Assembly: GCA_016187385.1 (NCBI GenBank)
Contig: JACPJU010000001.1
Span: forward strand, 463,144-527,143
DNA: 64,000 nucleotides
Origin: Candidatus Aenigmatarchaeota archaeon
Lineage (GTDB): Archaea; Aenigmatarchaeota; Aenigmatarchaeia; CG10238-14; SCSR01
Direction: 5' to 3'
Position numbers and translations under genes: made by a program. Of the stretch, positions 37,801 to 38,545 are shown one piece after another; positions within the stretch are counted from its first letter, which is position 1; each line of letters begins with the position of its first letter. The notes below the pieces were generated by a model. The model was given only the letters and a program-made list of their open reading frames with translations, was not told the DNA's origin and ran no database searches.

Positions 37801-38545
37801 TTATTTCAACGCCTTTGCATCGCTTTCATTGTATTTTTTGAACCTTCCGTCTTTTCTTATAACAGCCAAGTCGCTAACAATCTCTTTCTTTTCCTTGCCG
37901 TCCTTTTCGGCCTTGTCGATTATTTCCAGAGCGAGTTCTACAGCCTCCTTTTCGCCCAGATTTTCTTTCCACCTTTGATGTAGTATTTTCATTGCCAATG
38001 GCGCGCCCCTGCCAATTGCAAAAGCCTTCCATTCGAACAAAGTTCCGGACGGGTCGGATTCAATCAGATGTACACCAGTATTGTCAACACCGCCCAATAT
38101 AAGAGAAACACCATATGGTCTTAGACCGCCGTATTGAGTCAATAATTGCATCCTGTTTCCAAGCGATTTCGCGAGATTCCACATGTCAATTGGCTCATCA
38201 TAGGTTATCTTGTGCATCTGCGCCTTTACGCGTGTCTGCTGGATCAAAACTCTGGCATCAGCCAGCAATCCAGAAGCAACAGCTGCTGCATGGTCGTCTA
38301 TCTGGAAAATCTTTTCCATAGCATCTGATACGACAAGCTTGCCTGCAGATCTGACTGTAGCCAGGACAACGCCGTCCTTGAAGACTATGCCTAGTGCTGT
38401 GCTACCTCTCTTGACCGCCTCTTTTGCATATTCCACTTGGAATAAACGTCCATCCGGGGAAAATACGGCAAGGGAACTTTGTTAGTAATTAACTAAACAA
38501 ATTTGTTCTGTCGTACCCCATATATTCAGGCATTATATCCGGCAT
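37801..38545 (-). CDS. psmA: proteasome alpha subunit, interrupted by a predicted BHB intron (join 37801..38471, 38503..38545)
   Basis: Forms the outer rings of the 20S proteasome. The continuous frame from a GTG at 38436 starts at VEYAKEAVKRGSTALG and lacks the essential N-terminal block. Upstream, in another frame, lie a clean start (SD GGAGGT, then ATG at 38545) and [13 protein letters not shown]; after a 31-nt insert the DNA encodes [17 protein letters not shown]. Removing 38472-38502 joins these as [16 protein letters not shown], exactly the family pattern (GYDR.[16 protein letters not shown]), and gives 237 residues. Frameshift, assembly error or pseudogene are the alternatives, but the insert folds as a canonical archaeal splice motif (see intron entry). 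Confidence 0.85.
38472..38502 (-). other. predicted 31-nt archaeal bulge-helix-bulge pre-mRNA intron in psmA
   Basis: On the minus strand the junction folds as helix-bulge-helix-bulge-helix: the outer exon helix GTACGACA with TGCCGTAT (one A-C mismatch, one G-U); a 3-nt bulge CCT on the 3' side; a central 4-bp helix GAAC/GTTC; a 3-nt bulge AAA on the 5' side; and an inner intron helix TTTGTT/AACAAA extended by AGT/ACT across one bulged T. Cutting each bulge between its second and third base restores the psmA frame. This geometry is the substrate of the archaeal tRNA splicing endonuclease. Confidence 0.8.

Follow-up and report, generated by a model that had tools for sequence, protein, structure and literature searches.

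The proteasome alpha subunit gene (psmA) of the uncultured archaeon considered here, a member of Candidatus Aenigmatarchaeota, cannot be read from its start codon to its stop in one frame, which raises the question of how an intact subunit could be made from it. The original prediction was that a 31-nt bulge-helix-bulge (BHB) intron splits the gene and is spliced from its mRNA. We examined this proposal in the window, i.e., the whole stretch of 64,000 nt that contains the gene, in the genome of origin (876 kb, 3 contigs, 91% complete) and in related genomes. A second psmA, which could have provided an intact copy, was sought in the window genome and none was found; the sole other proteasome gene is psmB.

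The psmA locus and its insert

The features of the locus are as follows (positions are those of the window).

37801..38471, minus strand: psmA exon 2, running to the stop, proteasome alpha subunit (PF00227, arc_protsome_A)
38464..38470, minus strand: outer exon helix, 3' strand TGCCGTA (fold)
38471..38473, minus strand: 3' bulge CCT, predicted cut between 38472 and 38471 (junction analysis)
38472..38502, minus strand: predicted psmA intron of BHB type, 31 nt, ATTTGTTTAGTTAATTACTAACAAAGTTCCC (junction analysis, fold)
38474..38477, minus strand: centre helix, 3' strand GTTC, intron side (junction analysis, fold)
38478..38501, minus strand: inner intron hairpin (minimum-free-energy fold)
38502..38504, minus strand: 5' bulge AAA, predicted cut between 38503 and 38502 (junction analysis)
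38503..38545, minus strand: psmA exon 1, 43 nt, 14 residues and the first base of an Ile codon (family alignment, spliced product)
38505..38508, minus strand: centre helix of 4 bp, 5' strand GAAC, exon side (junction analysis, fold)
38509..38515, minus strand: outer exon helix, 5' strand TACGACA (fold)
38552..38557, minus strand: Shine-Dalgarno-like GGAGGT 5' of the psmA ATG (sequence)
38600..39556, minus strand: LAGLIDADG endonuclease gene directly 5' of psmA (PF14528, E 8.4e-10)
39601..39619, minus strand: conserved AACCTCCGATANCTTTATA element, TATA-like, a putative promoter before the endonuclease gene (sequence comparison)

The reading frames are arranged as had been proposed. The missing start lies upstream, where an ATG at 38545-38543 on the minus strand follows GGAGGT at 38557-38552; read unspliced, its frame runs into a TAA within the intron (38491-38489, codon 19). 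The downstream frame by itself, ORF 37801-38436, offers no start before a GTG that already lies within the conserved N-terminus. The gene order around psmA is pop5-psmA-SBDS-rrp4, and in the window pop5 and psmA are separated by two extra genes.

The claim that the insert forms an exact archaeal splice substrate was borne out for every element, namely the outer helix, the GAAC/GTTC centre, the AAA and CCT bulges and the inner hairpin. The BHB is the minimum-free-energy fold, itself modest by energy alone (z -1.65), and that fold contains both the outer and the inner helix of the strict hBHBh' form; the outer helix has 7 positions, of which one is an A.C mismatch. Cutting after base 2 of each bulge, the standard position, removes 31 nt and restores the conserved N-terminal sequence, so that the spliced product matches the family, carrying TIAV and the invariant motifs. 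When all splits were tried exhaustively, the family residues TIAV were obtained at this site from one junction only. The same junction ranked first in a blind scan, in which stretches of three genomes supplied 62,882 BHB candidates, which were spliced in silico and their junction peptides compared with other genomes. At 31 nt the insert is too short for a group I or II intron, and no ribozyme fold of either group was found in the window, where Rfam matched three tRNAs only. An Rfam tRNA match at 54242-54306 (minus strand) lacks both ends, is unreported by ARAGORN and possibly represents an intron-containing tRNA.

From these features we infer, with a probability of roughly 0.93, that the insert is an archaeal BHB intron of the psmA pre-mRNA. 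The host tRNA-type splicing endonuclease EndA, the activity of which is assumed, would make its cuts behind base 2 of the two 3-nt bulges and RtcB would ligate the exons, to leave a mature mRNA for a complete proteasome alpha subunit of 237 aa. It was also suggested originally that such splicing might control proteasome supply, which is speculative here.

Introns in relatives and in other genes

The psmA gene carries inserts in 5 of the 16 genomes of the family and is intact in the other 11. There are nine inserts at four sites near the start of the gene, up to three per gene, and those of the five genomes measure 31-35 nt each. They lie after GYDRT in the window genome (G000), at PEY/M, M/F and V/E in G003, near PEY/M in G010 and G012, and in G013, a relative of another genus, at sites that include V/F and the window's own site (slashes mark the insertion points). 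In all of them a 4-bp centre flanked by two 3-nt bulges lies at the junction defined by homology, and the cut is predicted after the second bulge base. The helices of the shared site covary between the two genomes: the window has Arg codon AGA and intron GTTC, G013 the synonymous AGG and GTCC, so the helix is preserved, and an inner pair is changed from T-A to C-G as well. Intronless psmA is found in three of the four same-genus relatives of the window genome (G001, G002 and G004). Judging from this distribution, psmA introns are gained and lost between close relatives. No copies of the introns, that of the window included, were found elsewhere in the genome stretches examined, and no further clear psmA intron among the 136 genomes of the class with a psmA match. 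The apparently truncated psmA of G111 proved to be an N-masked gap. In several relatives (L004, L006, L010, L011), psmA has a seeming ATT or ATC start after a good Shine-Dalgarno sequence, with no ATG, GTG or TTG at the conserved start place.

Three more genes contain inserts of the same 3-4-3 geometry, which together with the homologous and independent introns of the relatives and their compensating changes, the single EndA and RtcB of the window genome and the lack of a second psmA upholds the BHB-intron reading of psmA. The top three candidates of the blind scan were the window psmA, the G003 psmA and rnhB of the window genome, whose feature is:

L153 6672-6702, minus strand: predicted rnhB BHB intron of G000, 31 nt, in the RNase HII catalytic motif GIDEAG/RG (blind scan)

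Inserts in rnhB occur in 21 genomes of the class including that of the window, seven of them within the family (17-32 nt) and fourteen in other families (22-35 nt). A scan based on homology only, ignorant of BHB structure, was the source of the rtcB (G013) and metK (G003) cases. The rtcB inserts, of 13-32 nt, are found in G003, G004, G011 and G013, two of which have two sites, and the metK inserts in G001 and G003. Every insert in the four genes interrupts a signature motif, and the spliced form restores the invariant motifs. The stretches with inserts in rtcB, the splicing ligase gene, are L127 at about 4670 (plus strand), L294, L306 and L305; a second rtcB copy of G011 has candidate BHB introns only 13-16 nt long, and the rtcB of G002 (L161, L296) has no introns and contains an in-frame intein-like insert within a 960-aa frame. 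The apparently split tfs gene of G013 (L123 6780-7000, plus strand) was rejected because its frame is broken by a tandem duplication of 35 nt, and the remaining split-gene candidates of the homology-only scan turned out to be low-complexity sequence, rRNA or antisense frames.

The introns placed by homology number 38 (13-35 nt), the 38th being that of G010 rnhB, with junctions set by the BHB-ignorant script on protein homology or by exhaustive splits. A perfect 4-bp centre is present in 34 of the 38, where 3.1 are expected by chance once the equivalent junctions available at each site are taken into account (P about 1e-35; sites inherited in common each enter the count, so this P overstates independence, the direction not being in doubt). 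Imperfect centres occur in the rnhB intron of G064 and in three rtcB introns, which have a terminal G.A in common. By direct count, 79 of the 80 centre cells of the rnhB introns (n=20) are paired. In 2,000 strand shuffles the number paired averaged 41.7 and never exceeded 62; the choice among equivalent junctions, allowed for in the P test and not in the shuffle, favours pairing in this comparison. The rnhB centre occurs as TGGC/GCCA, GCAG/CTGC, CGGC/GCCG, CTGG/CCAG, GACG/CGTC and GATG/CATC. Outside the window, most introns have an outer helix that is weak or lies beyond an internal loop.

The upstream endonuclease and intron spread

The gene directly 5' of psmA in the window encodes a LAGLIDADG endonuclease whose closest NCBIfam match lies within an RtcB intein model. 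Its orthologue stands directly upstream of psmA at all five intron-bearing loci and at none of the 11 intronless ones, a split with a chance of 1/4368 if kinship is ignored. The five endonucleases are mutual best matches and form a psmA-specific group. Their tree, which joins G003 with G013 (94/95) and G010 with G012, departs from the host tree: an endonuclease clade of G000 and G003 is rejected (p 0.023), whereas the psmA tree unites these two in the genus clade (100/100). The pairs of the endonuclease tree also share psmA intron sites, site C being found in G003 and G013 only. This conflict between trees, along with the shared sites, fits a joint movement of endonuclease and introns into the same site, and the association, which comprises few independent events (two pairs on well-supported branches), suggests collaborative homing. 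The psmA introns would destroy the target of the endonuclease and probably guard it from cleavage while travelling with the upstream gene.

The endonuclease could also be a mere neighbour with no part in homing, the introns spreading by reverse splicing and recombination, which is compatible with splicing of psmA. We consider this possible, if somewhat improbable. In its favour are the introns of rnhB, rtcB and metK, none of which has an endonuclease gene adjoining it, and the several endonuclease genes of the window genome that adjoin intronless genes, such as 58098-59237 beside a GTPase gene; against it are the distribution over the psmA loci, the psmA-specific group and its discordant tree. 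The lack of such neighbours at rnhB, rtcB and metK speaks against an endonuclease partner for the whole intron set, and with the limited independence of the psmA cases collaborative homing is proposed for psmA only.

Some further endonuclease genes were observed. The one at 58098-59237 (minus strand) is a second, diverged LAGLIDADG gene just upstream of the intact gene of an EF-1alpha-like GTPase, and is preceded by another AACCTCCGATANCTTTATA element at 59283-59301 (minus strand); exact matches to the element in the window number 2, against 0.02 expected. The element is also found before endonuclease genes at L064 11638, L119 10345 and L115 16577. L115 (G000:C2:70000-89999) has several LAGLIDADG genes clustered in an apparent rRNA gene region. 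The psmA-linked endonuclease gene of G010 (L066 10245-11238, minus strand) is split by a frameshift and is either decayed or mis-sequenced.

Predicted splicing, its machinery and its precedents

Some hairpin inserts are retained in the mRNA and hopped over by the ribosome, as in T4 gene 60 and the yeast mitochondrial byp elements, and short frame-breaking hairpin inserts tolerated in essential genes resemble them. Translational bypass nevertheless appears very improbable for psmA. It has no need of the 3-4-3 BHB geometry that lies at the homology-defined junction of nearly all inserts. Wobble changes in the exon are offset inside the insert at the centre helix, and in the window the take-off codon ACA is not repeated immediately ahead of the landing frame. 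More improbable still is that the insert arose from faulty sequencing or assembly or that the gene is a decayed pseudogene: relatives with named records are metagenome assemblies and the tfs candidate did prove to be a duplication, but insert sites are common to independent assemblies of different projects with diverged and compensated sequences, the psmA exons are conserved along the whole protein, and the gene has no second copy.

Splicing of psmA would call on EndA and RtcB, each encoded by one gene in the window genome, where RtcB is intact. EndA is single-copy in 14 relatives too, and that of the window genome is related to the M. jannaschii enzyme over its full length. The catalytic Lys of EndA is replaced by Ala in all 15 family genomes with a match (NIRAT for SVRK; L033 1474-2040, minus strand, 188 aa, and L321-L335), and its activity is therefore assumed here. 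The family enzymes have a conserved basic loop, GVKLKRGPK, before the catalytic His. This loop may compensate for the lost Lys, because in other archaeal EndA proteins Lys residues in specific loops aid cleavage (PMC6379350, PMC12397907).

With canonical archaeal tRNA and rRNA introns of BHB type the psmA introns share the 4-bp centre, the two 3-nt bulges and the predicted cuts within the bulges; they differ in that the host is an mRNA, the introns of the set are as short as 13 nt and the outer helix consists of coding sequence. The closest precedent is cbf5, the single archaeal mRNA for which splicing is confirmed (PMC2738675; 'in one mRNA' according to PMC7714728), whose introns in Desulfurococcales and Sulfolobales are of BHB type, measure 16-44 bp and are cut by EndA (PMC2738675). 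Both cases have short BHB-type introns in a protein gene, EndA as the cutter (assumed here) and lineage-specific gain and loss. The cbf5 system concerns one gene in Crenarchaeota, with BHB-like motifs and a heteromeric EndA, whereas the Aenigmatarchaeota, a DPANN lineage, have such inserts, most of them of strict 3-4-3 form and as many as three to a gene, in at least four genes, all distinct from cbf5, with a single EndA gene and, at psmA, a linked endonuclease. HVO_1309 of Haloferax is a further mRNA substrate of EndA (PMC7714728); it resembles psmA as a protein-gene transcript processed by that enzyme (predicted here) but is reported as a processing substrate, not as host to a family of frame-restoring introns. 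We found no published BHB introns in proteasome, DPANN, Aenigmarchaeota or RNase HII genes in the literature covered, which is incomplete, so that priority is not proven; with cbf5 as the known case, this supports the suggestion of psmA as a new host gene.

Collaborative homing has a phage counterpart, reportedly made of a group I intron and the Endo VII-type enzyme F-CphI. This pairing of F-CphI with the adjacent psbA intron of cyanophage S-PM2 is mentioned in passages of PMC6083498 and PMC10448857. There, as at psmA, a free-standing endonuclease gene lies beside an endonuclease-less intron at a conserved coding site; at psmA the intron is of BHB type, the enzyme a LAGLIDADG protein and the host a cellular archaeon, cleavage being putative.

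The psmA intron would be one case of short BHB introns (13-35 nt) that occur across the lineage in invariant motif codons of psmA, rnhB, rtcB and metK. The fuller picture, tentative and at slightly less than even odds, is of mobile mRNA introns spliced by EndA in several genes of Aenigmatarchaeota, some rtcB genes among them, with a two-part element at psmA in which BHB introns mask the site and the LAGLIDADG enzyme attacks intronless alleles. Archaeal mRNA splicing, so far confirmed for one gene, would then extend to at least four core genes across a DPANN class, with introns that recur, covary, are as short as 13 nt and number up to three per gene. Gene finders unaware of introns would assign wrong starts to such loci or split the genes. 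The dense variation in presence and absence among close relatives makes gain, loss and homing of archaeal mRNA introns directly testable. If the rtcB introns are true, splicing would be needed to make the splicing ligase, which raises the possibility that splicing regulates itself.
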